This document shows, piece after piece, positions 1,656 through 63,663 of a stretch of DNA of 64,000 nt. This DNA is from Owenia fusiformis (Eukaryota; Annelida; Polychaeta; Sabellida; Oweniidae), in contig CAIIXF020000002.1 of assembly GCA_903813345.2 (NCBI GenBank), positions 3,078,001 through 3,142,000 of the forward strand, read 5' to 3'. A model generated the notes under the pieces. That model ran no database searches and was not told the origin of the DNA. It saw nothing but the letters and a program-made list of their open reading frames with translations. A program made the translations under genes and the position numbers. Numbering within the stretch: the stretch's first letter is position 1; each line of letters opens with the position of its first letter.

Positions 1656-4600
1656 GTTTGACATTTTTCTCAGAGAGTTTGTAGATTGTTTTCTTCTTTT
1701 TTCTCATTATTTAGACTATAGTGTGATTTGTTGTCTTTTTCTGCGATTAAACAATGATGGATTTACATGCATTTTTATCAAAATGTGATTTCAAAATGAT
1801 TAAAAACTTTAATTTAATTCATTATAATGAATGTTTTAAGTTATAGAATTTGTTAATAGTAAGTAGCATCTTCAAGTTCCAATCTTTATGAGATGTTATA
1901 AACAATGATATTAATAAACTGATTTCATAATAATGATATTTTATTGAATCCTGATTTCATTGCAATAATATTTTATTACATTTTGTTACATTTATTTGCA
2001 GTGGGTCCTGCAATGTCATATGAGGACCAGACTTCCAAGACAACAGCTATTGTGAAACTGGCTGGTTCAGTTGACATTCTAGTCTCCCCTCTATTACTAG
2101 AGTCTCTTCAGAGGTAAGTCCATAGAAAATAGGCATCTATATATAAAATAGGCATCTATGTAGAAAATAGGCATCTATGTAGAGAATAGGCATCTATGTA
2201 GAAAATAGGCATATATATATAAAATAGGCATGTATGTAGAAAATAGGCATCTATGTAGAGAATAGGCATCTATGTAGAAAATAGGCATCTATGTAGCACT
2301 CATTTGGAGTGTTGAACCTATTCTGGTAAATGTGTTTTCCAATAAATTAATTACGAGTGACGTTATATGTGCATTAAGAATTTTTTTAAAACAAAATATG
2401 AAGTTGAAATCGGATTATTTTCCAATTCTTTTATTAATTTATTTTTTTGCATTACAAATTGCATTCTGCATCTGTAACAATTTGCAGGTGGTGACATTTT
2501 GCTTCTTAATGCCTTGTATGTGTATGTTTAAGTCAATTTTTCATTTATAGGTATATTGAAGCAGTGACCCCTACTATTACAAAGCTTCATCCCTCCAGTA
2601 TCGTTGACAAGCTCCACTTTCGCAGTTCAAGTGCCGTCAAAGCCCAGAATAAGCTCAAAGAGCAGGGGGTAGGGGGCAGCACTGATGAAAATGATGGCGA
2701 GAAAAAAGATGAGAAAAAATTAGCAGAGGAGACAAAAGCATCTCAGTTCCAACTCATGGTCACTATGTCAAAGGTATGGGATTATATCAAAAGTATGGGA
2801 TTATGTCAAAATTTGGGATTATATCAAAAGTATGGGAATATATCAAAAGTATGTGATTATTATCTAGGTAATATGATTATGTCAGAAGTTTTGGATTTTG
2901 TTTATAATTAATGGTTATGTCGAGACTGTTAAATGACATGTCCTTGCTTGTTCTTCTCTTATTCCACAATTTTCCAATATTAAAATGAGTCGATTTTGCT
3001 AATATGATTTAACGCAAACATTTTCTTTTTGCAGATTAACCTTTGCGTTCTACAAGCATCTATGGTGGAGGAAGTGATCGCACTTTCCGCATTGGAACAC
3101 GTCAAGGACCTAACGTGTGTCTCCCTATTGGCTGTCTGTCTCGACAACATCTCATGTCAATTTCTAACCAATCACCAATCAGAAAGAGCAATTGAAATGC
3201 GCCAGGAAACTAGTCCTGATGAGACTTATAAAAAGTTCGGGAAATTGCCCATGGGACATAAAAGGAAAATGGCGGAAAAGGCTGCTACAGCTGAGCTTCG
3301 TGAAACAGTTGTTGAAAAGCACAAAGAAGATCTCGTTGGGAATTTAAATATCTCAAAGATACATTTCCAGTTGCGGAGATTAACAAAAGATTGTAATTTC
3401 ACGCAAGATGTGGTGCTGACATCTATACCGGAATATCGTTCGAAAGTCTTGTTCACATTCGACAAGGACAAAATCAGTAATATTGCCCCAGTGACAAAAC
3501 AGAATTTGACAGGACAGGCATCACCAACTTTGAAAACAGGTACTAGGGTGGAGCTGACCCCAGAGGAGCAAATCCTTGGGGTCATAATGTGCGAGTGGGG
3601 GTTGGAAGACATCAGCTTAAGAGCAGCTAAGAGGAGTGGATACGCATCAAAACCATCAGAAAATACACCAGGAATGAGTTTAACTGAAGCGAAAATCAAT
3701 GAGCTTCAGGAAAGAATACGAGAAGAGAGCTCCGGTTCTAAATCATACTCCAATGCCTCAACAGCAGGATCAAAAACTGTCCCCCAGGATCAAACTTCCG
3801 TACGGCTTGAAGACATGAACTTATTAGAAAATGAATCTTGGGCCTCCCGTGAATCGATCCCATCAAGTGCGTCCACAATGAGTGAGGAAGTACTGCCGAG
3901 TAAACTTGAGGGGGACGCATCCAACTGCTCCCTTGAGATCAGAGGGGTGTGGTTCAACTTTGCAGCACCCCCTCCCTCTCCTAGCTCCAGGAAGTTGGAA
4001 TATACAAGGTAATTTTAGATTTGCAATTTACGTGCGACAATTCTAGCAATTCCAAATTATGAATAATTAAAATGCAGCACTTAGAAAGTAGAAACGCAAT
4101 TCTGAGATCTGTGAATACGAATGGTATTTGGAGGAATAGACCAATCCAGTAGTCATGCCATCTATTGGTTATGATGTTATTCTTACAATTTCAGTGCAGA
4201 AATAGGATTAAAATATTGCTAATTTTCAAAAACTTCTTTCAATTTTGTTTACAAACGCAGCTGCCTGTAGAGTATGACATCATAAATCCTTGGTTATTTC
4301 ATAGTTTCCTTGGTTCACAAAAAGTGGTCAGGATTTATTGGAAAGGTCTATTACTCTCTTTCTAGTATATGGACAAACCTGTCTAAGTGGAACATATTTG
4401 GTACCTCAGAAGAGTGTTCCACTTGGGAGGTGTTTCACTTACAGAGGTTCAGTTAACTGCATTGTGGAAGTGTTCTTTATTAAGAGATCTCCCACTTTAC
4501 ATGTTTTACACTGTAATATTAATCCGATGTAATTATTGCTTTCAAACAAGACTGGAATCTTCTCAGTACTGCGACGCAATATGTTATACTTATGGAGGTG

Positions 4601-7600: not shown

Positions 7601-10600
7601 CATCCAGATAGCTCTTCCCCTATTCTAGCTGAGAAAACCATTGTGGATGAAATCAAAGAAAATACACCAAAATGTTGGCGCACACTGTATCATCTCTTAG
7701 ACTTATACTCGACCATGCCGGAAACCAAAACTGTCGGAGCGAGATTTATTCAAGCCCGGCTTCCCGCGATTTCAGAGGAGCCAGAACGGGAGACTCCACC
7801 CTCAGGCAAGGGTGATACCCCCAAGGCTAAGAGAGAAGAGGAGGATGTAGAACAAGGTCTGAGGGGGAGAAGCAATTCTCTGGGAAGAAGGAGAACTTAT
7901 ACAGTTGGAACATCTTTTAAACAAAGTAAGTTGGTAGCCTAGTAGTAAAGACTACTAATTTTCCAAATAAAATTAGTGGTCCTACTTAACCACCAAATAA
8001 CCCTTTTAATTTAAATGAATTTATGACTCATTCATCTTCATATTTTATTTATCTTTAGTATAGATCAGACAGAATTGCTTTTGATAGAAAACTCAGACAG
8101 TGACTCAAGCTCTTAAACTCAAAATGTTATTTTCCATTTCAGGTATTTACATAGGGTTTTATTGGGAATGACCAAGATTTGTCACATCCATATAACTGAC
8201 AGTGACTCGAGTGCTTAAACTCAAAATGTTATTTTCCATTTCAGGTATTTACATAGGGGTTGTATTGGGAATGGCCAAGATTTGTCACATCCATATAACT
8301 GACAGTGACTCGAGTGCTTAAACTCAGAATGTTATTTTCCATTTCAGGTATTTACATAGGGGTTGTATTGGGAATGGCCAAGATTTGTCACATCCATATA
8401 ACTGACAGTGACTCGAGTGCTTAAACTCAAAATGTTATTTTCCATTTCAGGTATTTACATAGGGGTTGTATTGGGAATGGCCAAGATTTGTCACATCCAT
8501 ATAACTGACAGTGACTCGAGTGCTTAAACTCAAAATGTTATTTTCCATTTCAGGTATTTACATAGGGGTTGTATTGGGAATGGCCAAGATTTGTCACATC
8601 CATATAACTGACAGTGACTCGAGTGCTTAAACTCAAAATGTTATTTTCCATTTCAGGTATTTACATAGGGGTTGTATTGGGAATGGCCAAGATTTGTCAC
8701 ATCCATATAACTGACAGTGACTCGAGTGCTTAAACTCAAAATGTTATTTTCCATTTCAGGTATTTACATAGGGGTTGTATTGGGAATGGCCAAGATTTGT
8801 CACATCCATATAACTGACAGTGACTCGAGTGCTTAAACTCAAAATGTTATTTTCCATTTCAGGTATTTACATAGGGGTTGTATTGGAAATGACCAAGATT
8901 TGTCACATCCATATAACTGACAGTGACTCGAGTGCTTAAACTCAAAATGTTATTTTCCATTTCAGGTATTTACATAGGGGTTGTATTGGGAATGGCCAAG
9001 ATTTGTCACATCCATATAACTGACAGTGACTCGAGTGCTTAAACTCAGAATGTTATTTTCCATTTCAGGTATTTACATAGGGTTTTATTGGGAATGACCA
9101 AGATTTGTCACATCCATATAACTGACAGTGACTCGAGTGCTTAAACTCAAAATGTTATTTTCCATTTCAGGTATTTACATAGGGGTTGTATTGGGAATGG
9201 CCAAGATTTGTCACATCCATATAACTGACAGTGACTCGAGTGCTTAAACTCAGAATGTTATTTTCCATTTCAGGTATTTACATAGGGTTTTATTGGGAAT
9301 GACCAAGATTTGTCACATCCATATAACTGACAGTGACTCGAGTGCTTAAACTCAAAATGTTATTTTCCATTTCAGGTATTTACATAGGGGTTGTATTTGG
9401 AATGGCCAAGATTTGTCACATCCATATAACTGACAGTGACTCGAGTGCTTAAACTCAGAATGTTATTTTCCATTTCAGGTATTTACATAGGGGTTGTATT
9501 GGGAATGGCCAAGATTTGTCACATCCATATAACTGACAGTGACTCGAGTGCTTAAACTCAGAATGTTATTTTCCATTTCAGGTATTTACATAGGGGTTGT
9601 ATTGGGAATGGCCAAGATTTGTCACATCCATATAACTGACAGTGACTCGAGTGCTTAAACTCAGAATGTTATTTTCCATTTCAGGTATTTACATAGGGGT
9701 TGTATTGGGAATGGCCAAGATTTGTCACATCCATATAACTGACAGTGACTCGAGTGCTTAAACTCAGAATGTTATTTTCCATTTCAGGTATTTACATAGG
9801 GGTTGTATTGGGAATGGCCAAGATTTGTCACATCCATATAACTGACAGTGACTCGAGTGCTTAAACTCAGAATGTTATTTTCCATTTCAGGTATTTACAT
9901 AGGGGTTGTATTTGGAATGGCCAATATTTGTCACGTCCATATAACTGACAGTGACTCGAGTGCTTAAACTCAAAATGTTATTTTCCATTTCAGGTATTTA
10001 CATAGGGGTTGTATTTGGAATGGCCAAGATTTGTCACATCCATATAACTGACAGTGACTCGAGTGCTTAAACTCAAAATGTTATTTTCCATTTCAGGTAT
10101 TTACATAGGGTTGTATTGGGAATGGCCAAGATTTGTCACATCCATATAACTGAAAGTGACTCGAGTGCTTAAACTCAAAATGTTATTTTCCATTTCAGGT
10201 ATTTACATAGGGGTTGTATTGGAAATGACCAAGATTTGTCACATCCATATAACTGACAGTGACTCGAGTGCTTAAACTCAAAATGTTATTTTCCATTTCA
10301 GGTATTTACATAGGGGTTGTATTGGGAATGGCCAAGATTTGTCACATCCATATAACTGACAGTGACTCGAGTGCTTAAACTCAAAATGTTATTTTTCATT
10401 TCAGGTATTTACATAGGGGTTGTATTCGGAATGGCCAAGATTTGTCACATCCATATAACTGACAGTGACTCGAGCTCTTAAACTCAAAATGTTATTTTCC
10501 ATTTCAGGTATTTACATAGGGGTTGTATTGGGAATGGCCAAGATTTGTCACATCCATATAACTGACAGTGACTCGAGCGCTTAAACTCAAAATGTTATTT

Positions 10601-13600
10601 TCCATTTCAGGTATTTACATAGGGGTTGTATTGGGAATGGCCAAGATTTGTCACATCCATATAACTGACAGTGACTCGAGTGCTTAAACTCAGAATGTTA
10701 TTTTCCATTTCAGGTATTTACATAGGGGTTGTATTTGGAATGGTCAAGATTCTTCACATCCATATAACTGACAGTGACTCGAGTGCTTAAACTCAGAATG
10801 TTATTTTCCATTTCAGGTATTTTCATAGGGGAACACATCCCTCTGGTAGTGTTTGGGATGGCCAAGATTCGTCACATCAATATCACTGCCTATCTCAGTG
10901 GTCTAAAGCTGGAAAGCAATGTTGACCATGTACATGCAAGCATTACACATAGGGAAAAAATAAAAGGTAAATGAGAGGTAGAATTGGTAAATTTGACATT
11001 TTTCATTGTTTCTCATTTTGACTGAAAGCATCTTGGAACTTTTCCCACATTTGAGGCAACTGTTCAATTACTGAGTTCTGTAGCCAATTCCATCGAGCTC
11101 AACTTTGAAATTTTGCCAACCTTGTACTGCAACAGTGTAACCTGTATAATTTCCCCATTTTGACCAGAACTTGTCCAGTTTTGAGCAAAAAAAGTTTCCT
11201 GGGTGAAATCATAACAATTACCATATATAATATTATTTTATATCATTCCTTATAAGGTGTGAAGAAAAAGCGGAGCAGTGAATCGTCAGCCACAGCTTAT
11301 ATTGGGCATTCCATGATAGCTCTCCTAGAAGGGGTACCACCTCAACTCCAGTAAGTTATTAATGTCCTAAAAATATCATAATAAGGAAATATACTTAAAG
11401 GTTCAACATTATTCGAAATTTCTCTCTACAGTCCTCGTTGCCCCTTTAATGAGACTCAAAGGGATAGAAACAGTTTATATAAGTACATTTTGATTTCATC
11501 GTTCCATGTTGCGACTTTTCTAAATATTCTGATTATAAACAGTTCTGAGTAATCCTGCAATTTTTAAGGTTGCCTGATAATCCTTTCTAATTTCTGTGAA
11601 AAAATGAATATTTTTAGCCTTTCATTTCGAAGGACAAAGCTGAAAAAGTATAATTTATATAGAAAATGTGATGTGTATATAATACTGAAGATTTGAAATT
11701 TTCTGAAAATGATGAGTTTTCATTTAGCCACATTTACTAATGCCTTTGTATGATTTTGTACTGCAATTATAGATAAATCTATAAATAAATAAATGAAAAT
11801 ATATGAAATAAATAATAAATTGATAAAATTTACATTTTCATCTACATGAAAGAGATACTGTAATGAAAATATGTATTATCAATTTTTCATTTTCAGGATG
11901 GTTGTCTGCGTGAACATTTCCAAATCACAGGGTTTGTATTCCACGAAGGTGAAACGTCACAAAGAGACCAACTCAGCCCTTGGTACCCTGGGTAATGTTG
12001 ACATAGATATCCCGCAGCACCCTGTGGCGCTACATGGCATGGTTGCAAGGAGCTCTAAAAGAATATCTAGTACGCTAATGGAGTTTATACCAAAGAAAGG
12101 TCCTTCTAAGACCAGGTATGTTCTGGAAATAATTTACACAGCCAATATAATTTGACGCCGTTTCGGCATTGAAAAAATTTGGCGCTGTTTCGGCACCGTT
12201 TCGACACCGTTCCGGCACCAAAACCTTTCGACACCAAAATTTGCCTAGTCAGTCCATTTGGTGCCAAAATTTGGCACCGAAACGGCGTCGACAATCAGAT
12301 TGCATTTTGGGGGTGTATACATGACTGAAGAATATGTAGCTTGTAACAATTACACTTCCACTGTTATACTTTTGTTATTAACAAAAGCTATAAGAATTAA
12401 TGTTCAGTTTACTTACTGTCAACAGCTGCAGACATTGATATCATTAATTCTGGATTTGTTTGAAAGTATCTGATATATGTAGATGTCTCCCCAGTAACTA
12501 AAGACAATGCAGCTTATATTATTGAAATGTATAACATTAAAATGCCTTTCATATTCAGGCCCGTAGCCAGGAGGGTTCGCAGGGTTTGGACAAACCCCCC
12601 CCCCCTCCCCCCTAGCCAAAAGTTCTTTCAAAATTATGCAGTTTTTCACTATTTTGAGCACTTCTCAAGTGATTTTAGCCATATTTGGGCCAAAATTGTC
12701 AAATGTGAACCCCCCTGGAAATTTTTGAAAACTGAACCCCCCTTGGCAAATCCTGGCTACGGGCCTGATATTACAATTATATGATTATTTTGTGATAAAG
12801 CTATAGAAATTATAAAACAATCCCATTTATAGATCTGCAGACAGTATAGATGGCATTCCACGTGATCAACCCTCGAAGCATTCTGACATTAACGAGGATG
12901 AAGTCGCACCTGCGGAGGAGAAAGAGCTTCCACCTTCAGCTCCTCTTATGGTTGTTAACTTCAAATTGGCGCTGCAGGGAATGACGATCGGGGCTTCTTT
13001 ATTACCGTCATTAAAGGCACAGTATAAGGTATAAAACATAGTTTAACTTCAAATTGGCGCTGCAGGGAATGACGATCGGGGCTTCTTTATTGCCGTCATT
13101 AAAGGCACAGTATAAGGTAAAAAACATAGTTTAACTTCAAATTGGCGCTGCAGGGAATGACGATCAGGGCTTCTTTATTGCCATCATTAAAGGCTCAGTA
13201 TAAGGTAAAAAACATCGTTTAACTTCAAATTGGCGCTGCAGGGAATGACGATCGGGGCTTCTTTATTGCCATCATTAAAGGCACAGTATAAGGTAACAAG
13301 GCATTAATATGCAAATTGTCAGCACATGCTATTTGGTACAGACACCAACCACCAAACTCCAGCTACCAAACACCAACCATTAAAATACCAACCACAGAAC
13401 ACCATCCACAAAAAAGTTGGAGACTATAACAATATGTCACGGAGGTGACATAAAAAACCATAATCTGCTTCCACATACAAATAATGCAATATGAATAAAA
13501 ACCCGAGACTAGGCAGATGGGGTGGCATTGAGCTGAAATGTTCCCTAAAGGAAACAATAGGATATAGTTGATATGGTTACTGAACTGTGGCATCGCATGG

Positions 13601-16600
13601 CCTCGGTAGATTGAGGAATGTACTATAGAACAGTATTAATATTGCGTTTTAGATCGGGAAGCAGAATAGAATGAAAATGTTGTATATGTATGTTTTAGAT
13701 CGGGAAGGTGTCTAGTCGAGGGGTAACTGGAAAAGAGGCTAGATTCACAGTGGAATATCCAGAACATTCGCTCAGCTTCAATTCACAGGTAGGTTCTCAG
13801 AATGTTTTTTTGCATTTCAAACACTACAGTTGCCCAATATTACTTTAGTTGTCCAATATTACTTTAGTTGCCCAATATAAGTTTAGTTGCCCAATATTAC
13901 TTAAGTTGTCCAATATTACTTTAGTTGCCCAATATAACTTTAGTTTCCCAATATTACTTTAGTTGTCCAATATTACTTTAGTTGCCCAATATAAGTTTAG
14001 TTGCCCAATATTACTTAAGTTGTCCAATATTACTTTAGTTGCCCAATATAACTTTAGTTGCCCAATATTACTTAAGTTGTCCAATATTACTTTAGTTGCC
14101 CAATATAACTTTAGTTGCCCAATATTACTTTAGTTGTCTAAGTTTACTCCAAGTTGCCCAACATTATTCACATTTTTTTCAAATTTTACTCACATTTTCC
14201 CAATATTACTTGAAGTTACCCAAAATTGGTCACAGTTGTCCAATATTACTCAATTTTAGTAACACATTAAAGGTCGTAAAATACAAAAATAAAAAATTTC
14301 AAATGATACCCCATAAGTTATGAAAAAATACAGTGTTTTATCCCCGGGATTTTATCAGAATTTCTGGATCGGCCCATATAAACTGCTACAAGAAAAACAA
14401 TGAAGACATTTTTGACTTCTTACTACTTTATTTTCGAGAAATATGAACTGAATTTCATGAATTATTTTTTTTATGCCTTTTAATACTTATCATTGTCTGC
14501 AGGAGGGATGGTTTTTCCCCCTTGTTTAAAAATTTGTCCATGTCGGTGCTCCAGGAAATTCCAGATCTTGGCTGTTCTGTTAACACCCCCTCTGAATTGT
14601 ACTTGCCATTCAATCTAGTGGCTCCACATCTTGAATACCACCAGCCGCCACCATTTAAAGACTGGGCACAGTGTACTTTGCCATTTGAGTCATTGTCACG
14701 GTCATTCGTGGAAAATTCCCTGTTTCTCATACTCAAAGCTTGGGCACCTGCCGTACCCTCCAAAAATGACCCGATATATGCTTTGTAATTCTCTGTCTCA
14801 TTAGATATTCTGAAATTCTCATGAATCGAGTAGTACCATGTCCCATTTGGGTGATGAAGATCGAAACGAATTTTGTAATCATTTAACGTTACCAGCTCAT
14901 GAATTTTCTCATTTCCAAGCCAAAATTCACCATTTAAATCGCCAAATCCATTTTTATATTCATCCCAAATTTTGTCATAGAAACTCACTGTACCGTCAAT
15001 CCGTCTTTGTATGACACTCCATCCATTGTCAGCCATATTGCAATAGATGTGAAATGGCGGTAGATTTAAATTTGGCTGTATGACGTAACTTCCACTTTTT
15101 CTTATCCCCCTGTTAAACCAATCTTCACAATCTCTTGGGGCGGTAACAGCCATTGAATACCACCCGGCATCGACAAATTTCGCCGATTCTGGCACAGGAA
15201 ACTCACCATAACTGACATGTTCACAAACCCCATCTTTAGGGTTGTAATTCACGGCCCAGCATGTTAAATCGCGTGTGCACTCTGCAGCGCAATCCAGTCT
15301 CGTGACCCCTATGTCTGTTCGAATTGCCTGAGCTCGTAAAACTTTGTATTGGTTTATATGATAGGTGTTCTGAATATATACATGTCCAATACACTGATGT
15401 AATATCCCAATCATAAGTACAGATGTAAACATTTTAATGATTAATTCCTTAATCATTTATACATGTAGTTTTATACATATATTATTTTTCTTTCATTTCA
15501 TCCTTTGTATGTCTCTTTCATATTATTGTCTTTTTATTGACATATGCAGATATCTCACCTGGTGTATAAAATAAATCCATGAATCAACTGTTGATAGTAT
15601 TTAGTAAAAGTTAGTTATAACCATTTTTTGTTTAGTTTTAACTTTGTGTAATTATCATATATTTGTCTGATAATATATGTATCCTCTGGTATATAGAATA
15701 CTGTACAACCATAAATCAATGGTCGTCAATAGATTTCAACAATTACATGTAGTTAATAATTCTTCATTAATTTTAAGTTTGTGTAATTATCATATACATA
15801 TTTGAAGACTAATGCAAACTCGTGGCATCTTGTTCATACATCCTAAACATTTTTTAGAATAGATCATATTTCTATCGAGTATGTTGATTTAAAACTCCCG
15901 GTAAAGGGAATAATAGACACATACATGCTGTCCATCACTAACAGCAGTTTGTCAAAGGTTGTATTTGAAAGTCATTTTCTGTATTTCTTCGATCATTGCG
16001 AGTCTTTGTTGATGTAGTCTGTATAGTATCCAGGGTAATGAAATTCCAATTTTGTTTGCTAAGAGTTTCTTAGTTAAAGTGGCAAAGAGAGAAATGAACA
16101 GTGTTGGGAAAAAGTGTAACATTTTTAAAATCAGAACATTTTTATGAAATAAATTCACAATTTTTAATTTTTTTTCAAAAATAGGCAGCATTGACTAGAA
16201 ATTTTGTGAAAAAATGATGAAAAATTAAGACAATTTCAAAATACTATTCCCAACTCTTGTCCATCCTTTAGTGTCCCTTTAAGAATAAATTGTGTTTCTA
16301 AATTGTCTATGATATTTTCTTCTTGATTTGTGTACTTATTCATTCTTTGTGGACTTACGCTGCAGTAAATCTCAATTGCTGAATCTAAATGAAGCTGCAG
16401 AATCATTAATGAATAGTTAGGCTAAAGCGATTAATTTCTAAGTTTCACGTCACAATTTCAGTCAATATATTTTTCCCAATAAGTCATGCTTTTGTTTGCT
16501 ACACAAAAGAAACAGAGATATATTGGCTAGATTTGAAAAAAGCAAGCTGCCCGCTTGTGGTTTAAGCTAAAAAAAGAATATTTTTAATGGAGGATGATCA

Positions 16601-43600: not shown

Positions 43601-46600
43601 ACTTGGCACTTGCAAACCCACATGAAACTTTATTTGGCACTTGCAAACCCACACGAAACTTTACTTGGCACTTGCAAACCCACACGAAACTTTACTTGGC
43701 ACTTGCAAACCCACATGAAACTTTACTTGGCACTTGCAAACCCACATGAAACCTTACTTGGCACTTGCAAACCCACATTAAACTTTACTTGGCACTTGCA
43801 AACCCACATTAAACTTTACTTGGCACTTGCAAACCCACATGAAACTTTACTTGGCACTTGCAAACCCACATGAAACTTTACTTGGCACTTGCAAACCCAC
43901 ATGAAACTTTACTTGGCACTTGCAAACCCACAAGAAACTTTACTTGGCACTTGCAAACCCACATGAAACTTTACTTGGCACTTGCAAACCCACATGAAAC
44001 TTTATTTGGCACTTGCAAACCCACACGAAACTTTACTTGGCACTTGCAAACCCACACGAAACTTTACTTGGCACTTGCAAACCCACATGAAACTTTACTT
44101 GGCACTTGCAAACCCACATGAAACCTTACTTGGCACTTGCAAACCCACATTAAACTTTACTTGGCACTTGCAAACCCACATGAAACTTTACTTGGCACTT
44201 GCAAACCCACATGAAACTTTACTTGGCACTTGCAAACCCACATGAAACTTTACTTGGCACTTGCAAACCCACATGAAACTTTACTTGGCACTTGCAAACC
44301 CACATGAAACTTTACTTGGCACTTGCACATATTATGCTTGTATACATTCTATTTTACCATTGTGCACATTCCTTTTGACCCTTATGCACATTCTAATTGA
44401 CCTTTATGTACATTATTGACCCCTGTGCACATTTATTTTGACCCTTGTGTACATTGTGTACATTCTACTTCACCATTGCGTACATTCTTGACCCTTGTAT
44501 ACATTCTACTTACCCTTGTGCATATTTTGCTTGAGCTTTGCTAATATTCTACTTGAATCTTCGGAAATTATCCTATGCAGGCAGTACTTGCAGAAAACGC
44601 CTGTTGCAGATATCATATCGTGTGTGCTCAATGCAGAATGACCAATTATTTTTGAATCCAATTTTCGAAATATTTTTACTAAGCCATGTAGGGTATTCAG
44701 TTATATTCTCATGACATCCGCATCAAGCTTTTTATTCAAGCACCATCTTCATAGAGTAGGGATGATACACTCTACTCCATGAAGCTACTCAACATGACCT
44801 AACTATCTTAATGATCTCAATACATGCTCTCCTTTCTTCCAGGTCCACTATGAATCCAAAGCAAATTCCAATTCAACAGAGAGTCCATCAGGTTCATTAA
44901 ATCTGACCTGCCAGTCTTAATGATCTCAATGCATCCTCTTTTTTCTTTCAGGTCCACTATGAATCCAAAGCAAATTCCAATTCAACAGAGAGTCCATCAG
45001 GTTCACTGAAACCAGACATTTCAGCTGAAATTTTAGAGAACACCAGCAACACCTCACAAGCATCTGCCACAAAGAGACCAGGCAACAAGAAGGCCAACTT
45101 GTATGCATGGGTGTCACTTCAGAAACTACCTGAGGTAAAATTAGATTATGGTTTAGATTTAAGAAAAATGGCAATAAATATGTTTTATTGCCTCTGTTTT
45201 CTTCGTGTGATTACTTTCAGTGGTTGGTGTTAGGCAGTTGATATTTTGCATCCAGGCCTGTAGCCAGAAATTGCTGAGGGAAGATTCACTTTTTCAGAAA
45301 TTTTAGGAGACGTTGACTTTTGAAAGTTTTGGCCCAAAGTGGCCAATGTCACTCAAAAGGTGCTCAGAATGGTGAAAAACTGCATGATTTTGAAAGAATT
45401 TTTGGCCAGAGGGGGGGGGGTACACAGAGTGTACATGTGAAAAGTGCTTGAAGGTACATACTTCCCACATGAACTGCAATTATATGTTTCACTTATTCCA
45501 TAAAAATGTAAACCAGTAAGACTAGGAAGGATGTTGTTTAGAATTTTACAGTTGAAATCCTCTTGAGTTGAATTTTCTCTTTACACTTTCATTTTGTAGA
45601 GAAAAAGCTTTGCCAATTTATTTCATTGTTAAAAAACAAATCATACGTTCTCATTTATTTTAGTACATAAACCATTTTCTATTCATTTATTTTTCAAAAT
45701 TTCATAGAATTTAGATTTCTAATTTCTAATTTGTAGGAGATGTTAATCAGTCCAACCCTGTTGGATTACCTTGAACAGACCCTGGAGCCAATTCATATGG
45801 AGGCTTGGTATCTTTCAAAGGCACATGCTAAAGGTAAATGCGCAATTATGTGAAGGTGGAAATGAAAATCCAACTGCTTGTCCATTAAGGATTTACGCCC
45901 TTGACTCAGTGCAAAAAGGAAGCACAATTCCTATAGTACATTACGAACGGTAATTTCTATATAGTATAGTATAGTACAAGGGAAGGGCAATTTCTATAGT
46001 ACAGTACATGGGAAGGGCAATTCCTATAGAACAGTACAAGGGAAGGGCAATTCCTGTACTACAGTACACGGGAAGTGCAATTCCTATAGAACAGTACAAG
46101 GGAAAGGCAATTCCTGTACTACAGTACACGGGAAGTGCAATCCCTATAGTACAGTACAAGGGAAGGGCAATTCCTGTACTACAGTACACGAGAAGGGCAA
46201 TTCCTATAGTACAGTACAAGGAAAGGGAATTCCTATAGTACAGTACAAGGGAAGGCAGGGCAATTCCTATACATGAAGTATATATACAAGGGAAGTGCAA
46301 TTCCTATAGTACAGTACAAGGGAAGCGCAATTCCTATAGTACAGTACAAGGGAAGTGCAATTCCTATAGTACAGTACAAGGGAAGGGCAATTCCTATAGT
46401 ACAGTACACGGGAAGGGCAATTTCAATAGAACAGTACAAGGGAAGGGCAATTCCTGTACTACAGTACACGGGAAGTGCAATTCCTATAGAACAGTACAAG
46501 GGAAGGGCAATTCCTGTACTACAGTACACAGGAAGTGCAATTCCTATAGTACAGTACAAGGGAAGGGCAATTCTTGTACTACAGTACACGGGAAGGGCAA

Positions 46601-49600: not shown

Positions 49601-52600
49601 AACCTTGTATCTTAGATTTACGAAAATGGATAGGGATTATTCGAAAGGTCTAAGTATCCCAAATCATTTCACTGTCCTCATAAATCGTACAATGACATTT
49701 TAACTACACAGGGAGATATGCTGAGTACTAAAATAGTACTCATGGCATTTTAGCGCTTATTGAGTACTCATTTCAGCAAATATTAGTACTAAATGAGCAC
49801 TTGTGACATGAGTACTGATTTATTGCATGTTTTGGTACTAAATGAGTACTCATATGATGAGTGATAAAATAGTGCTAATTTCATTGATTTTTCATTACTC
49901 AATGAGCAATCATACTATGAGCACTAATTAATTGCATGTTTTAGTACTAAATGAGTACTCATATGATGAGTGATAAAATAGCGCTAATTTCATTGATTTT
50001 TCATCACTCAAAGAGCGCTCATATTATGAGTAATAATTTATTGCACATGTTTCACGAGTGATAGATTAGTACTCACAAATTAAAATGTTGATAATTTTTT
50101 TCTAATTGATGAAGTAAAATATACAATACGTAATAAATTACATTTTAATTATACGAAAACATGGATAAATATATCATTAAACTTTTCCAAAAATTCCCAT
50201 TCCTGTAGCTATTTCATGTAACGGGTTGAAGCTAGGAAACTAAATGACAGACACCATATTGTTCTATTCTTGAGAAAAGTCCATATATATATACACTGCT
50301 TTGTCATCCAGAATAAGTGAAAGATGAGGTAAGTAGTATTAAATGGGAAATCACTAGGTTGCATGGGACTTGTATCCCAGCTAGAATGATACCTATTGAG
50401 TGCTTATTATTTAGTAAATGAACAATACTTTAGTGCTAAATGAGCAATTTTTTAGTGCTAAAAGAGCGCTCAAGTAGCACTGGATCATCACTTAAAATAT
50501 TGTTACTAAAATGGTACTATAATAAACACAAAATTGTCACAAAATGAGTACTAAAATAGCACACAAGTAGTAATAAATTAGCACTCTGGCAAAAGTGCAC
50601 TCATGAGTACTCATGCCACGAGTGCTAATTTTGTACTAATTTAGTACTCGGCATATCTCCCTGTGTATCCTTTTTAAATACAGACAACTCATCCCTCTTA
50701 CTCATTAGTATACCGCAATTTAAATTGTAAAGAGCATAAATTATGTAAGTGAATTCAATGCTATATTGAACATCTAATGTGAAATTATCATGAAGTTTGT
50801 TACAGTTGTAATAACTTTAGAAATGCAACATAATTATATTGAACTTCTGCAAAATACATTTGCTGTCATATTCATATTCATACTGTCATATTTCTCACTC
50901 TCTGAGAAAAATCCACCCTGGTGAATATAACAGTGAATAATAAAACAAATATTTAATTCTATTTTTCCCTCAATAGAATTAAATATTTGTATAATATTGA
51001 ACATCTATGAAATGTTTGTACATGTATATACAGAGAGAGACCAGAAATTAATTTTGAAAAATACTTTGGTGGAATCATCTTGAATCTTTTTTTGTTTTGT
51101 TATAATGGTCAATGGACCAAAATGAGTAATATTTATATCCACTTAGATTTAGGGATTTTTCGAATCTTTGCATGCTCTTCTATCAAAACATATAGCAATG
51201 CAGAGAAACCCGTATTTGTCATTTTTAAGCACATATCAAATTCAGTCTATCATTTTTGACAAAAATTAAAGAGAGTTGAAATTGTGACGGAAATTCCAAT
51301 TTCAAAAAATTGCTTTTGAATTTTTACTGTTATGCAAAGACTTAATGCAAGCATATAATAACCTTCTCATAATAGTGATAGTTGTGATATGTACACCTCT
51401 GTTTGTTCCATTGAACACTCCATCTACACAAAGAAATGGAGGAAGATTCCACTCCATAATTTAAGCTGTTTCATAATGTTTGCTGTTATTTCAGTTTGAT
51501 TGAAATTGATTGGAATTTTTAAATTTTATTTTAATCAAAAAACTTTTAGACTAGTCATTTTCATTTGAAGTCAACAATTTGATACTTCCAGATTCTTATA
51601 ATCTTAAAAACCTTACTCACTTTTATCAGCATTTTCTAAATTCTTAGAATCACAAAAACATGTTCACTTTTATCTACATTTTAGACACACATAATGAATA
51701 ACGCTAAGGTTATATTATATACATTTTCAGTTTGGACTTAAGCTCTTCTATGTTATCTTTAACTCATATTTGGATATGAAAGGATGACATTTCTATTTAA
51801 AAATAAAAAGTAAATATTGAAATTGGTCAATTCCTAAGCAGAGGTAAACATACTTTAAACATGGCTTATTTTGTGTCTTATTGTATCTTATCATTTTAGT
51901 CAGCAACTTTGGAACCATATATAGAAACTATTGTGAACTTTTTCCCTCACCTATATTATTTATAGGATATCCTATGATTTTGAGGAATATCATTTTTATC
52001 TATGAGATGATATTGATATCTGCACGAGAGAGCAAAGCAAACGAGTGCGTATATCAATATCACAGAGTAGATTAAAATGATATTCTGAAAAAAATCATAC
52101 GATGTTCTTATTATCCTACACTTACAAGGAGACTACTAAATGTATAATATCATTGCAAAATGAATTTCATGCCAAATAGAGTCAATTTGGCGGGATTTCA
52201 ACAAGCAGAGTATATTGTCACAATATCCTCCGCATATTGGGTTTTCAAAGATAATTCAATTTTGACTGTACAGTTATCAGGTTGAATTCAGATTATTACA
52301 TACTACTACACAATAAAAAAGTTAGAATGAAATATTCATAATAATCAACCATCATATATAGTTATGCCAAGTAAAGAAATATTTAAAGTATGTTTAACCC
52401 ACATTTTGTTCAAATTCATTTCACAATTGATGAGTTAACCTTATAAATAGCAAACTCTGAACCTGGAAATTGGAATTTGTTGCTGATATCAAGCTGATAG
52501 TGCTCACATCCGGGATCACATGTGCATTCATAATTACACATGGTGGCAGGGGTGGTGGGATCTTGGGCACCTATTGGAACACAATTCTTAAATTTTCCAT

Positions 52601-55600
52601 TGAACATATCCTTTCTATTAGAAGGGTCCCCATACACTGTCCTTATCATAGATTTTTTCACGGTAGATAAAGCGTAACAGATCATACCAGATCCCTCAAC
52701 GGTAACCTCAAAGTTTTCCAGTGTTTGATTCAAATCTATCGCAACCTTTGTCAAAACCATTCCACTAGAGAATGGTGGTGTAAATGGTTGTATCTGCTCA
52801 AACATGTCACCTATTTCCCGGTAAAGAGAAAGAGGTTGTTCACTTACATCAAACACAGTGAGACCAAGACGTTCTAATTTGTTGTGCAGAGGCTCGATAC
52901 ATCTCACATAAGATTGATATTCACACTTTCGAAGACCAAACTGTTCAACACAATCATCAATGGAAAGTGCATCATATGGACAAGTAACTTGAAACGCACG
53001 TTTAGGAATGGCATAGCAGAAACTTTTTACTTCATCAAGCCCTGACTCTGGTAACAGTTGTTCACAAAGCAGTTTTGCCTCTTTTATTTGGAAATTAGGA
53101 CCGCATACTGGTGTCCAGTCTTTCCCTTCAACCTTAACCTCAACCAAACCTTCCAGAGAAATACTGCTGCCATTTTCCAGTTTGAAGGGGGGTCCTTTCG
53201 TTAAACGATATTCAGGTTTGTTAGCAAAACATTGAACACCTGCTCCTCTGCTGCACCAATGCTTATTCAAGTCAAATTGTTCAATTTCACATTCTGTAAT
53301 TCTATTCTCAGCTCCTGTACATCGAGTCAAATAAATGGCAAACTTGTTGTTTTCATTTCTGTAATTCGGATTCGAATCTCTAATCGCTTTCACATATGTT
53401 GTGGGCAATCCTAATTGTCCACACACGACCTTTGCTTCTATTTCTGTCCACTCGTCGCCACATATCTTACCCCAAGCTCCATCTTGGAAAATGGAAATTC
53501 TTCCAGACTGTTCTGTTCCTCCAAAAAGTTGAATGTTGCCTTCTGTCTCTTCTTTAAAACATTCAATGGTCACATCATACTCGTGCTGCCAGTTATCATA
53601 AGGAAGTGTTAGAGGCTCATGCCAACATCCCAAGATGTCATCTGCATTGGGAGCTTTATTACAGTTCACCCTATCAAATAACTCAATGTATTCATACAGT
53701 GGAGCGTCATCGAAGTCCAACCAGTTAGCCTTGTGTGCTAGACCTGTTGAAAATCCAAGATTTCTACACACAATGTTTGCCATGTTGTCTTGTTCATTGT
53801 CATCCTCTGCAACAATAGTACCTGCTTCACCAACTGTGCCGGTGATACCATTCACCGTTATCACTAATATCCCACTAGATCCATCACCGCCAGCTAATTC
53901 ATATACTGGTTCTTCATCGAGACAAATCACACCAGCCATATTCACCGCAGTGCATTGAGTATCATTGGCCCATCCCTGATTAAAACATTCTCCAACATTT
54001 TCCTCTAAACCAGTACAGTCTAAACCCATGAGCCATGAAAAGTTAGATTTACTCGGAAATATATTCATGTGATGACCTAAGAAAGTTAATTCATTTGGAT
54101 CATCACTGTAGTAGCTAGGTTCAATGTTGTAGGCTCTAACAACATTGGTAGCTAGTCCTAGCTGTCGGCAAACAACTCTCGCTGCATTCTCATTCCATCC
54201 ATCTGAACATACTGTACCCCAGTTGTCCAAGGAAGATACCTCAATCATTCCAGAGTCAACCATCAATGCAGTGTATAATGATACCTCATACTGTTCAACC
54301 GGACCTCTATCACAGTTTATTCCAATCAATGATGTGTCATATTTTATTGTATTTTGACTACTGGCTCTTTGAAAGTTACAGTCAGCAAGTTGTGTCATTT
54401 CATCGCCTTGACAACCAGGTATACGTATAACTTGTGGATATATGTCTGATCGTGGCAGCAGGTTCTTCATAAGAAAATAATCTGTAAACTTTTCGAAAGT
54501 ATGCCTTGATTCTTTGAAGCCTAATTCCTGACAAATAACATCAACATGCTCTTTGATACTATGGTCTTGAAAGTCAACCCAAGTCCAAATGCCATCATGT
54601 TTCATTTGAAGGAAACCACTATAAGGGGTACCACCTCCCATGAGCCTCAGTTGGGGTTTCTCAGTAAAGCAGCCTATTGATGCTATACCGTTGTTACAAG
54701 TACCAGGATGAACATTACATTCATTGATTGCTGCAGCTGTGTCAGTTGTGCAATTGACAATAAATGTTGCGGTGTCAGTAAGTTCGAAAACATCATGTTC
54801 TCTATAGTAATTGTATGGAAATGCAACTGGATATTCAGTAGAAAGGCCAGCCTGACGACAAAGTATGGTAGCTTCATTAAGGGTTAAATTATCTCTACAT
54901 ATTTTCCCCCAAGTGTTGTTCACATGTATATGAGGAACCCCAAGTGGTCCTGTTCCTTGACCACCATTAAGTTGAATTCCTTGATTAGTGGTAACATGGC
55001 ATGATACAATATACCCTCGACAATATTCTGTACCCCAGGCATAACCCGGGCATTCCCCGACATTCGATTCAGTTCCACTACAGTTAGGACTGCGTGACAA
55101 ATCATGTGAAATGGAGAATAGTGTTCCATCCCCATGGTCTCTTGTAGTAGAATATGATTGTATACCAAAGCGATCAAACCCAAGCTGACCACAGAGAACG
55201 CTGAGGAAAGAACTAACTTGAGTTGGATCTGCATCATTGGCAATGCAGACGCCTCCCCATCTGTCATCATAGAATACTTCTAATTTTCCTTCATATGGTC
55301 CTGCACCATAGACTAACCGTGCTTGGATTTCATTTGGATCAGTGGACCATTCCTCAACACCTGCCAGGTTTTCTTGCCCACACATTGTCACATTGACACC
55401 AATATTGATATTGCAGTCAACAAGTGATGTTTCCTGTCCAGTACAATCTACCAATAGTGTTGATTCAACAAATGATTCATTCCCATACGTGTCACTGTAC
55501 ACACCGTGTAATGGTTTCATTGGTGTTGACAGGCCCAGTTGATGTCCAATAACATCTGCTTCTGCTTGTTCCCATGTATTTTGTGCAGCACATATAAAGT

Positions 55601-58600
55601 TCCACTCATCATTCACATAAGTGATAACTCTCCCTGCTCCACCGATTCCATATAGTAGTTGAACATAACCCTCAGCGGGGTCTAATGGTAAGCATTCAAG
55701 GCCAACAGTGTCTTCTCTGTCAAAAGCGGCTTTATCTAACTCCTCATTTGTCCATGTTTTGAAATATTCTGGGCATTCTGTTATACGTTTTTCATTTCCA
55801 ATGCATGAAAATTCACCGAGTTTGCCTTTGGGATATGCACCTGCTCTGTAAAAACCACCCTTATGGATAGCTGCAAATTTCAATCCCAATTGCCTACAAA
55901 TAACTTGTCCGGCCTCGTTGTTAAAAGAATGTCTAAAGGAAGGTTCTTCAAATGGCCCCCAACCACCAAAATGGTATATTTCGACACGTCCACTGTATTT
56001 ATTAGGTCCATCAACAAGCCTCACAGACCCTTCTTCTACCCCATCACCTAGGAGATCCACATGAATGTCACAAACTTCTTGTATTGCTAAACTATATGTC
56101 CCAAAACTGAGGACTACAAGCGTCCCTATCCACCAAGCCATTGTTGAAGGACTGAAACTATGATAGTCAGGATTCAATTATCAACACCTAACAGCCTCAC
56201 CTGCTACAGTTTTGTTGTATTTTCATTTCCAGGACAACGGCAAAATATTATTATGTCGTACCCATTATGCATTTCATCGTCTAGCAACGTACAAACAAAT
56301 GAACTGTGAATTCCATACAGATTTGTTCCTGAGGCCAGCACTCAATTCATTATGATTTCAATTGATAGTGCATTTGATGAATTTTTGATGATCATATATC
56401 GAATTTCACAACATTTTTCTCAGATTCATATTTGGGTGAATAGAATAAATTGAAACGTTCTGCAAATAAAATATTTATAAACCGTCTCAGCATAATTTGT
56501 GGTTGTGCATTGTATATTTCCAATGTTTAGAAAACAAACAAAATATGTCATATACTTGTGGGGCTTGAGAAATTGACACAACCATGGGCGTAGGGCTATA
56601 TTTTGAGTTGGTACGCACACTCGGGGATGCCTGATTGCGTGGCCGAAGGCAGCGCATCGCGGGGGTCTGGGGGTATGCTCCCCCCGAATTCTTTTTTAAG
56701 GACGTTATTTGATGGAATCTAAGCGTTTTTATCAACTTTAAATGTTGACAATGGTAAACATACAAATTAATTAATGCATTTCAACACATTTTCAATTTTT
56801 TTCAAATTCATTTGGTACGCCTGTGCGTATTTTGCTTAATAGGCGCTACGCCCATGACAACATTGTGAAATTACCATAGTTTTTAACCATTGCTAAAGTA
56901 TGCTTGTTTAACATTTTATTCCAGGGTATAAAATCTACCACGCTATAGCATTAGCAGAATTACTTCATAGTGATTTAAAAAATACTGTCATTCAGTTTTG
57001 GAGATAATATAGTCTCTTAAAATCCACCAATCTTCTATTCCCTAACTTTGGGGGGGTCAAAATGTTTAGTTAAAATTGGTTATTTTATATAAAATATATA
57101 CACTTTATCATAAAATTATTATTTAGGCTTCTAGGTAAACAAGTTTTCTTAAATTAATATTTTAGGTAATACATACATTTAAAAGTGATAAAATGCATAT
57201 TAAGTCGATGAAGTGTATTCATATCTCTGGTATTTTATTTCTATTTCAGAATCAGAAGAACAATTAGAGAATGGAGGACTTGATGAAAGCATGACATCAC
57301 TGACTCCAGTGTCATACGCTTACACATTTCCTGTGAATGTCATGGTGTGTATACGAGTCAACCCCTCAATCATACGCTTCACATGCCTCCCTGTATCAAG
57401 AGTGGAATGCATTTTAAGGTAAGATTACGCTTACACATTTCCTTTGAATGTCACGGTGTGTATACGAGTCAACCCTTCAATCATACACTTCACATGCCTC
57501 CCTGTATCAAGAGTGAAATGAATTTAATGGTAAGATTATTTCATACACTTATACATTTCCTGTTAATGTCATGGTGTGTATACGAGTCAACCCCTCAATC
57601 ATATGCTTCACATGCCTCCCTGTATCAAGAGTGGAATGCATTTTAAGGTAAGATTATTTCATACACTTATACATTTCCTGTTAATGTCATGGTGTGTATA
57701 CGAGTCAACCCTTCAATCATACGCTTCACATGCCTCCCTGTATCAAGAGTGAAGTGAATTTAATGGTAAGATTATTTCATACACTTATACATTTCCTGTG
57801 AATGTCATGGTGTGTTTATGAGTCAACCCCTCAATCATAAGCTTCACATGACTCCCTGTATCAAGGGTGGAATGCATTTTGAGGTAAGAATATTTCATAC
57901 GCTTATACATTTCCTGTGAATGTCATTGTATGTATACGAGTCAGCCCCTCAATCATACGCTTCACATGCCTCCCTGTATCAAGAGTGGAATGCATTTTAA
58001 GGTAAGATTATTTCATACACTTATACATTTCTTGTGAATGTCATGGTGTGTATCCTAGTCAACCCCTCAATCATACGCTTCACATGCCTCTCTGTATCAA
58101 GAGTGGAATGCATTTTAAGGTAAGATTATTTCATGCGCTTATACATTTCCTGTGAATGTCTTGGTGTGTACACGAGTCAACCCCTCAATCATACGCTTCA
58201 CATGCATCCCTGTATTAAGAGTAGAATGCATTTTAAGGTAAGATTATTTCATACACTTATACATTTCTTGTGAATGTCATGGTGTGTATCCTAGTCAACC
58301 CCTCAATCATACGCTTCACATGCCTCTCTGTATCAAGAGTGGAATGCATTTTAAGGTAAGATTATTTCATACACTTATACATTTCTTGTGAATGTCATGG
58401 TGTGTATCCTAGTCAACCCCTCAATCATACACTTCACATGCCTCTCTGTATCAAGAGTGGAATGCATTTTAAGGTAAGATTATATCATACGCTTACACAT
58501 TTCCTGTTAATGTCATGTTGTGTTTACGACTCAACCCCTCAATCATACACTTCACATGCCTCCCTGTATCAAGAGTGGAATGCATTTTAAGGCAAGATTA

Positions 58601-61600
58601 TTTCATTCGCTTATACATTTCCTGTTAATGTCATTATATGTATACGAGTCAACCCCTCAATCATACGCTTCACATGCCTCCCTGTACCAAGAGTGGAATG
58701 CATTTTAAGGTAAGATTATTTCATACGCTTATACATTTCTTGCTAATGTCATGGTGTGCATACGAATCAACCCCTCAATCATACACTTCACATGCCTCCT
58801 CCCTGTATTAAGAGTAGAATGCATTTTAAGGTAAGATTATTTCGTACACTTATACATTTCTTGTGAATGTCATGGTGTGCATACAAATCAACCCCTCAAT
58901 CATACGCTTCACATGCCTCCTCCCTGTATTAAGAGAAGAATGCATTTTAAGGTAAGATTATTTCGTACACTTATACATTTCTTGTGAATGTCATGGTGTG
59001 CATACAAATCAACCCCTCAATCATACGCTTCACATGCCTCCCTGTATCAAGAGTGGAATGCATTTTAATGGAAGTCTTTATAGAAGGACTCGAAGGACTT
59101 CAAATAAAAGTTTAGTTGTCCCACATATGCATTGTTAAGCATAGTTCCTCTGCTTAAGAAGAAATTTTTAGTATGGCCATTTTCCTTTGAATATACATGA
59201 ACATGAAACCAACATTTTAAGATATATTCACATTGAATTCATGTTGCATATTAACAGGTTGCCATCCCTTGACATGGTTTTCTCCACAAAGAGGATTGAA
59301 ACAGAGAACCCCCTCGTGACATCCAAAGATGGGGGAACTCCTCCAATGAAATCAAAATGTAAGTAGGATACAAACATTTCAGATGAAGATTCTGCTAATT
59401 TGATGAAATCTTAGCCAAGAGGCCTGTCACAAATTAGTTTTCAACATTTAGAGTAAAGGGAAAAAATATCTCAATTATTTTTTGACCTTGAATAAAACAT
59501 TTTTTAAAACAGGTGAGAAGCAATTACCCAAATATTATAAGTTATGTGTCGATATTTTCCATCCGAGCCTGTTTGTTAAATCGCAGGCAATGTTGGGTCA
59601 GATATTTGTTTTCTATTCTAAATTGTCAAGTCTGAGTATATATTAATGTCATCCCAATAATTGTGAAATACTCCTAATTGATATGACCCCAAATAATGTT
59701 TTGATATGATCTATTAAAAAATTGTATTTTTGAGATTACTGAATAGGATCTGAAACTGTGAATGAGCAAGTTTTTATATTGCAGTAAACCGCGAAAGGTC
59801 TGCGAGTGGAAATCAAGGTCAAGGTCGTAATCTCAACTCTGGTTCCGTAGAGAATCTTCTCCCAGGGGGTGGTCTACAAGTGACAGCGTGTCTCAGTGAC
59901 TTCTCCCTCTTTATCTTCCATCCCTATGGGGGTCAGAACAAGAAAAGTGGCGAAAGCCTGCTTGGGGGACCTGTCATGACTCCCCCCTCTTTGGGTAAAT
60001 AAAAAATATTATTACATTTTTTTAATTTTAATTTTGATTCTAAAATGTTTTTAACTTTATTATGTACAGTCGTAAAATATATATTAGAATGTATTACATA
60101 CCTAGCGAAGCATTTGTATGGAAGTCAATGGAGCTGAAGGACGGCTATATATTCCTGTATAGCCGCCAAACTTTTTACCATGACAATCGTATGACGTCAC
60201 GTTTCATTTCTTACATGTTCACTTTGCACACAGATGTGTGACGTCATTGATATAACATGAAAACAAAGCATTTTTGTCTTTTCACGCATTTCTGCATATT
60301 ATATTCATGAAATGTAATGTAAAATGTACTTTAGGTATGTAATACAACAATTATGTCAGTATCATTGAATATATGCCTTCGGTCTGTCGTAAATATAACC
60401 CTCGCAAGCTCGGGCTATATTATTCACATAGTGCTGTTAGACTTAGTATGCCAATTTGTGGAAACAATCAAAGGGGTCCAGGGGCACACTCTCATCTGAA
60501 AATATTTTGATTTTGATGTTTTTTTATATAATATTTATTTCAATCTAGTGGGAAAGTATTTTCAAATTATTTAGATTTATTTTAGCTATATGCATTAGCA
60601 TACGTCGTACTTAAATGAGCGTAACAGGGTTTACATGAAAACGTCCAACAACATACTCTTAATTTGATTTCACTGAATATTTCAGAATGATATATTTCAC
60701 TGATATAAGTGTAATTGACATTCATGCTGTATTTATTTATCACATTAAAGGGTCTATGACAGATGGCGCTGCGTCACCTCTCTCTGCGGCAACAGGACGT
60801 AAAGATTCACTCAGCCTCAATGTGGAGTTTGTCAAAGTAAACATATCCAGGAGCAGGAAGGGAATCATTCAAGCCTCAGACACACACATTAGTCCAAATC
60901 AATTGAAGGCCGGAGGAAAGAAACCTAGTGGAGGTGCATCAAATATTATAAGATTTTCAAGTAAGTTAATTAAATATCATTAAATCTTACAAGTATCAAA
61001 TATTATAAGGTTTTCAAGTAAGTTAATTAAATATCATTAAATCTTACAAGTATCAAATATTATAAGGTTTTCAAGTAAGTTAATTAAATATCATTAAATC
61101 TTACAAGTATCAAATATTATAAGGTTTTCAAGTAAGTTAATTAAATATCATTAAATCGTACAAGTATCAAATATTATAAGGTTTTCAAGTAAGTTAATTA
61201 AATATCATTAAATCTTACAAGTATCAAATATTATAAGGTTTTCAAGTAAGTTAATTAAATATCATTAAATCTTACAAGTATCAAATATTATAAGGTTTTC
61301 AAGTAAGTTAATTAAATATCATTAAATGTTATAAGTATGGCATCTTAAGATTATAATATTAAATATCATCAGATTATCAAATGTAATCTGATCTCAAGTT
61401 CGCTATTACCTGGCCCAAGCTATTTCAAGTGCTCTACAACTCTGTGAAAATAATGTATTTCTTTCTTTATGAGTGTGTCAGAATCTTAAAGAATTTAAAA
61501 GAATTGAGCAAGTCCAAGTTTGCTTAATGTCTCTGAATATTTCATTACTTTATTATTCTTTCAGCCATATGTGATATTGGATCTGCCTCATTTAAATATA

Positions 61601-63663: not shown

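Follow-up and report, generated by a model that had tools for sequence, protein, structure and literature searches.

Gene content of the BLTP1 locus

We analyzed a 64,000-nucleotide stretch of the Owenia fusiformis genome (hereafter the window; C2:3,078,001-3,142,000; the assembly totals 498 Mb, divided among 525 contigs) with a model of splice sites and codons that was trained on this same stretch. The model comprises 34 exons on the forward strand with 67 junctions, which form the middle part of one gene, and its phases are consistent across all 34 exons (3,274 codons, zero stops). Model peptides spanning most of the exons that carry the arrays described below matched the Pfam families BLTP1_M and BLTP1_C, and on these sequence matches the gene is identified as BLTP1. 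The gene is also known as KIAA1109 or Tweek. A first model run gave 320 exons, mostly tiny, and the model was rebuilt with a minimum exon length; 7 of 41 model rows were then removed manually (two that are copies of exon 17, three inside simple arrays, and the rows at 39145 and 53099, these last by judgment, though they preserve the frame). The 716-aa frame of exon 6 had no match in a search against the PDB. All matches from three family searches (255/255) fell on contigs C1 to C12 and C288; hence, the genome is seemingly represented by 12 chromosome-sized contigs.

Two open frames lie antisense inside BLTP1 introns. One, at 52416-56177 (reverse strand, intron 28), is 1,253 aa long with eight SRCR-domain stretches and is a putative single-exon gene, and the other, at 14455-15456 (reverse strand, intron 11), spans 333 aa with PAN and fibrinogen C-terminal domains.

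Tandem arrays at exon edges

Tandem Repeats Finder, combined with the gene model, identified 10 arrays lying over exon edges in the window, at the donor edges of exons 3, 10, 26, 29, and 32 and at the acceptor edges of exons 5, 7, 17, 20, and 27. These are given below together with the gene and one further diverged copy:

1-64000, forward strand: middle part of BLTP1, 34 exons, exon 1 of the model cut at the window start (Pfam PF25039, PF25040)
2764-2860, forward strand: exon 3 end and donor (donor 2773), 19 bp x 5.2
4533-5290, forward strand: acceptor and exon 5 start (exon start 5264), 144 bp x 5.3
8096-10831, forward strand: acceptor and exon 7 start, 103 bp x 26.6, older and neutral-looking copies with gaps relative to the exon
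12955-13296, forward strand: exon 10 end and donor (donor 13028), 88 bp x 3.9
23148-23653, forward strand: acceptor and most of exon 17 (exon start 23529), 160 bp x 3.2
25607-26505, forward strand: acceptor and exon 20 start, 114 bp (38 codons) x 7.9
34037-34844, forward strand: exon 26 end and donor (donor 34072), 81-bp units followed by 99-bp units
44806-45005, forward strand: acceptor and exon 27 start, 109 bp x 1.8 (one extra copy)
57312-59068, forward strand: exon 29 end and donor, 118 bp x 14.9, neutral-looking copies with stop codons in 3/14
60938-61338, forward strand: exon 32 end and donor (donor 60960), 57 bp x 7.0
61551-61653, forward strand: one diverged copy of the acceptor and exon 33 start (exon start 61697), upstream of the exon

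The initial annotation counted 12 exon-edge arrays, at 12 of the 67 junctions, and 11 of 67 stand: the 10 arrays and the single extra copy at exon 33 (aligned over 103 bp with a score of 158; the best of 300 random intron pieces scored 28.5). The array claimed at exon 11 was dropped because its 13-bp match (score 26; null 95% point 21.5, null maximum 28) lies within the null range, with 67 junctions open to inspection. The ranges of unit length (19 to 160 bp) and of extra copies (1 to 26) given at the outset were both correct. Copies within an array are similar to one another (97% in the exon 7 array, for example) and, with boundary units pooled, differ from the exon. When the exon 7 and exon 29 units (2 of 11 arrays) were searched against the assembly with very common words skipped, they matched their own locus alone, and a dispersed satellite or transposon was rejected as the source of these two arrays.

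A further donor-edge array (86 bp x 23) occurs in the 9.9 kb of BLTP1 that follow the window. A long intronic array with approximately 136-bp and compound units, situated off exon edges, also lies shortly past the window end (window coordinates 67365-69102).

Chance placement and the distribution of arrays in other genes

For arrays with unit ≥25 bp and score ≥100, the chance expectation was obtained by placing one unit uniformly across all positions that are intronic or cover one edge. In the window, 10 of 22 arrays touch an edge, where 1.80 are expected (P = 2e-6, an optimistic value, as the window was picked for its edge arrays), and so high a density of edge arrays in BLTP1 is not accounted for by random placement. 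A sample of 29 other 10-kb stretches, picked blind to repeats and holding 666 junctions, comprised a motor-gene set (twenty stretches, 12 of them at dynein and 8 at myosin matches) and a replication set of nine ABC-transporter stretches, for which the test was fixed in advance. Edge arrays made up 13/37 in the motor-gene set (6.29 expected, P = 0.0035), and the excess was not replicated in the small ABC-transporter set (1/10, 1.37 expected). For the 29 stretches together, 14 of 47 arrays are at edges (7.66 expected, P = 0.01), and the joint P value at four other thresholds is 0.053, 0.058, 0.16, and 0.28. Whole-exon arrays, which would cover two edges, are too few to inform (0.72 expected in the samples). 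The claim that repeats straddle exon borders more often than chance would allow is borne out strongly in the BLTP1 window and moderately in the joint sample, with no excess seen in the ABC-transporter set; against random placement, edge arrays do recur in other genes, with a modest excess. The arrays had been noticed in one gene and are not confined to it, with 14 more on the 666 junctions of the other stretches (2.1%).

All 14 of these sample arrays are on supported exons, eight by a match in another stretch (the weakest with an E value of 0.002) and six within an unbroken Pfam match. Several manual decisions enter the counts. We removed 36 predicted exons by hand in 16 of the 29 stretches, and in one ABC-transporter stretch (L023), an exon start was shifted to agree with 311-bp homologues; keeping the start as predicted would give 2/10 rather than 1/10 in the replication set. 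Merging overlapping repeat rows differently and dropping the limit to the span from first to last exon changed the motor-gene count from 12/25 (5.46 expected) to 13/37. Array density is uneven from gene to gene, with arrays at 10/67 junctions in the window versus 14/666 in the sample.

Other features were observed outside the window. One myosin stretch (L018, G000:C4:24495000-24504999) carries three edge arrays on 14 exons, such that density differs strongly by gene. In the stretch L009 (L009:7816-9068), an array of 89 bp x 14.1 begins 17 bp past a donor and leaves the donor uncovered, and is possibly an edge array minus its exon part. At G000:C9:37986009-37994334 (reverse strand), one myosin-head exon (profile approximately 23-84) is present in at least 11 copies within 8 kb, an arrangement resembling a cluster of mutually exclusive exons.

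The excess at edges could arise if duplication were triggered at splice sites, whether by AG/GT microhomology, by R-loops, or by nicking or fork stalling tied to transcription or splicing, such that births cluster at exon edges. Excesses in BLTP1 and in the motor-gene set are what this would predict, although the ABC-transporter set has none and sample arrays with fewer than 2.5 copies (unit ≥25) lie at edges in only 2/16 cases, with 2.72 expected. Moreover, neither edge is preferred (14 donor and 12 acceptor among 26 arrays), and such near-equal counts argue against any mechanism tied specifically to GT, AG, or the pyrimidine tract. Crowding of intronic arrays next to junctions was also not significant, either within 50 bp (6/36 versus 4.41 expected, P = 0.27) or within 25 bp, which was run before (5/36 versus 2.29, P = 0.07). 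We consider a trigger at splice sites unlikely, and an AG/GT-specific cause, one of those listed as possible in the initial annotation, is not supported, given the near-equal edges and the random edge rate of low-copy sample duplications.

Arrays of at least 3 copies and units ≥35 bp in the sample are at edges in 10 of 18 cases (3.58 expected, P = 6e-4), unlike the low-copy arrays, in a split that was made post hoc, after the data had been seen, and is exploratory. The contrast holds at 12/12 combinations of unit and copy cut-offs, with P ≤0.0042 for the high-copy arrays throughout; in the window, low-copy arrays likewise exceed expectation at higher cut-offs. When all loci are pooled, the median copy number is 6.7 for edge arrays (n = 24) and 2.2 for intronic arrays (n = 37; P = 0.003). 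It is only suggested that arrays with an edge are more prone to amplification or persistence than arrays within introns. Tentatively, exon edges might act as minisatellite anchors, a reading to which we give limited credence: births would be random, and duplications holding an edge would amplify or persist as the exon supplies a conserved, recombining template from the exon alleles of the population. If so, intron growth in this genome would be driven partly from exon borders.

Splice sites, reading frame, and substitutions in the copies

The dinucleotide GT or AG is kept in 159 of 164 copies, and the splice site could not be aligned in five more (23 of 25 arrays alignable; two arrays in the stretch L012 gave no alignable copies). 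Median splice-site scores are 7.0 for decoys and 7.2 for true sites, with the decoy set of 174 including 12 true acceptors; the frame count leaves out those 12. Among the resulting 162 decoys, use of 155 would cause a frameshift or run into a stop, and the seven that keep the frame are in the exon 20 array (5/7) and in the sample stretch L025 (2/2). Exon 20 has the sole array in the window with in-frame, stop-free decoy acceptors, and the copies there and in L025 might be used, as their decoys keep the frame. The exon 20 array is open for 309 codons in the exon frame (25736-26665, forward strand), and a decoy acceptor there could add 38-aa repeats. Unit lengths modulo three are distributed 8:10:8 among 26 arrays, with no frame preference.

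Differences between the copy consensus and the exon fall 9:3:36 on codon positions 1:2:3. Exon-copy pairs have an omega of 0.20 (bootstrap over 21 arrays, 0.10-0.36), and 0.1% of replicates reach 0.5 or more, approximately the omega expected for dead copies ageing beside a constrained exon if the omega of the exon is about 0.1. Among copies, omega is 0.48 (0.27-0.75, 22 arrays). Singletons comprise 23 synonymous and 54 nonsynonymous changes (23:54; P = 0.19 against neutrality); the corresponding counts are 31:27 among shared variants (P = 0.008 versus singletons) and 36:11 among differences fixed against the exon. These ratios indicate that older variation arose under coding constraint and newer variation without it. 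Hence, the arrays are probably young and non-coding and derive from other functional exon alleles, and the substitution patterns suggest exchange between haplotypes as the probable route of the founder alleles. This reading is weakened by the amount of synonymous difference fixed between copies and exon, approximately 11% (33.8 of 294 sites), which is high for allelic divergence and requires a very diverse species or another source. Two arrays look older and neutral: that of exon 29, where events fall 16:14:14 over the codon positions and 3/14 copies have stop codons, and that of exon 7, with fixed differences of 3:3.

A rival reading is that the copies are used, either as alternative splice sites or as translated repeats under selection. 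Third-position bias is indeed present among copies (events 38:37:71) as well as against the exon, and the exon 20 copies have an open frame. Nonetheless, the bias is confined to older variants and absent from the singletons, and as proof of translated copies it was lost once singletons were split from shared variants; unit lengths ignore the frame, and nearly all decoys break it or meet a stop. Use of the copies is accordingly improbable.

Proposed origin of the arrays and relation to known systems

We favor, as the likely explanation, minisatellites of the "mirage" type, that is, silent tandem duplications of one exon edge that were later amplified, with copies that are young, non-coding, and drawn from other exon alleles. 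In this account, a tandemly duplicated segment, tens to hundreds of base pairs long, would happen to span one splice junction, while the outer, original splice site would still define the exon and the mRNA would be unchanged. Inner copies would have no partner site with which to define an exon, which could make the duplication silent, and exon definition is the likely reason that inner sites are neglected. The duplication would then amplify and homogenize like other minisatellites, with copies whose substitution patterns suggest an origin, probably through haplotype exchange, from functional alleles of the exon that differ from the adjoining one. Of the causes put forward initially, tolerance of arrays where spare splice sites stay silent fits best with the intact decoys, the unit lengths, and the predominance of frame-breaking decoys, as predicted from sequence.

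Tandem duplications of intron-exon borders are described for the amphioxus genes Adh3, those for globin and troponin C, and PGBD5, in the available text of two reports, where the arrays in Adh3, globin, and troponin C were named mirages (PMC3087553, PMC3902484). As presented there, many copies bear AG or GT and splicing is apparently normal (PMC3087553, PMC3902484). The arrays in Owenia share with them units of approximately 10-160 bp that lie over one splice junction, at both 5' and 3' borders, as far as the amphioxus descriptions extend (PMC3087553, PMC3902484), and many copies bearing AG or GT. The anatomical features that define a mirage are found here as well: units span the exon-intron border in the 10 arrays and the exon 33 copy, as in the 14 sample arrays, and 5' and 3' borders are both represented. 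Unlike the amphioxus cases, the present arrays come from a genome of 12 chromosome-sized contigs, 11 are within one gene window, and they reach up to 26 extra copies; beyond those cases, they also provide a rate on 666 junctions and substitution evidence on age. Conversely, splicing and length instability are shown in the amphioxus accounts, whereas the arrays here are known from the sequence of one assembly.

Among open-licence full texts, mirage reports were found for amphioxus alone (PMC3087553, PMC3902484). Outside amphioxus, none were recognized by title or abstract in open-licence texts, except boundary repeats in human genes (PMC2812944) and an intron gain in potato (PMC4974935). Human genes in segmental duplications likewise show minisatellite expansion at exon borders, although those repeats are tied to new introns or alternative transcripts (PMC2812944), and the present arrays carry no sign of a new intron. 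An annelid gene, earthworm metallothionein, is reported to have minisatellites in its introns, together with duplicates of exon 4 that are silent and do not appear in the transcript (PMC12783039). The portion of that report available to us does not describe the units as spanning splice junctions (PMC12783039), unlike the present arrays.

The initial annotation had also proposed that the arrays may be the raw material from which new introns form when AGGT-containing sequence is duplicated, along the lines of the model of Rogers (1989). A precedent is given by the potato RdRp gene, in which, according to the passages available, tandem duplication across intron-exon borders likewise occurred and the duplicate became a new intron (PMC4974935). 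In Owenia, however, each unit holds one existing splice site and the copies sit within existing introns of a continuous frame. No new intron from duplicated AGGT was seen in the window, where the 34 exons form one frame and the copies are left in introns, and this part of the claim falls away; we regard it as very improbable. Copy numbers do depend on the assembly, but differences among copies are structured (shared variants, gaps) and the same structure recurs in unrelated genes here and in published amphioxus genes, so false repeat expansion by the assembler merits scarcely any credence. The mirage-type explanation therefore stands as the preferred one: the BLTP1 arrays are real, of a known kind, and unusually dense, and what they add is evidence on rate, age, and neutrality.

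Implications

These arrays extend the amphioxus mirage phenomenon to, probably, another phylum. By extrapolation, if the proportion of approximately 2% of junctions holds genome-wide, very many exons in this genome would carry strong duplicate splice sites that the spliceosome has to ignore. Such arrays would allow exon definition, intron growth, and the birth of minisatellites to be studied in a natural setting.
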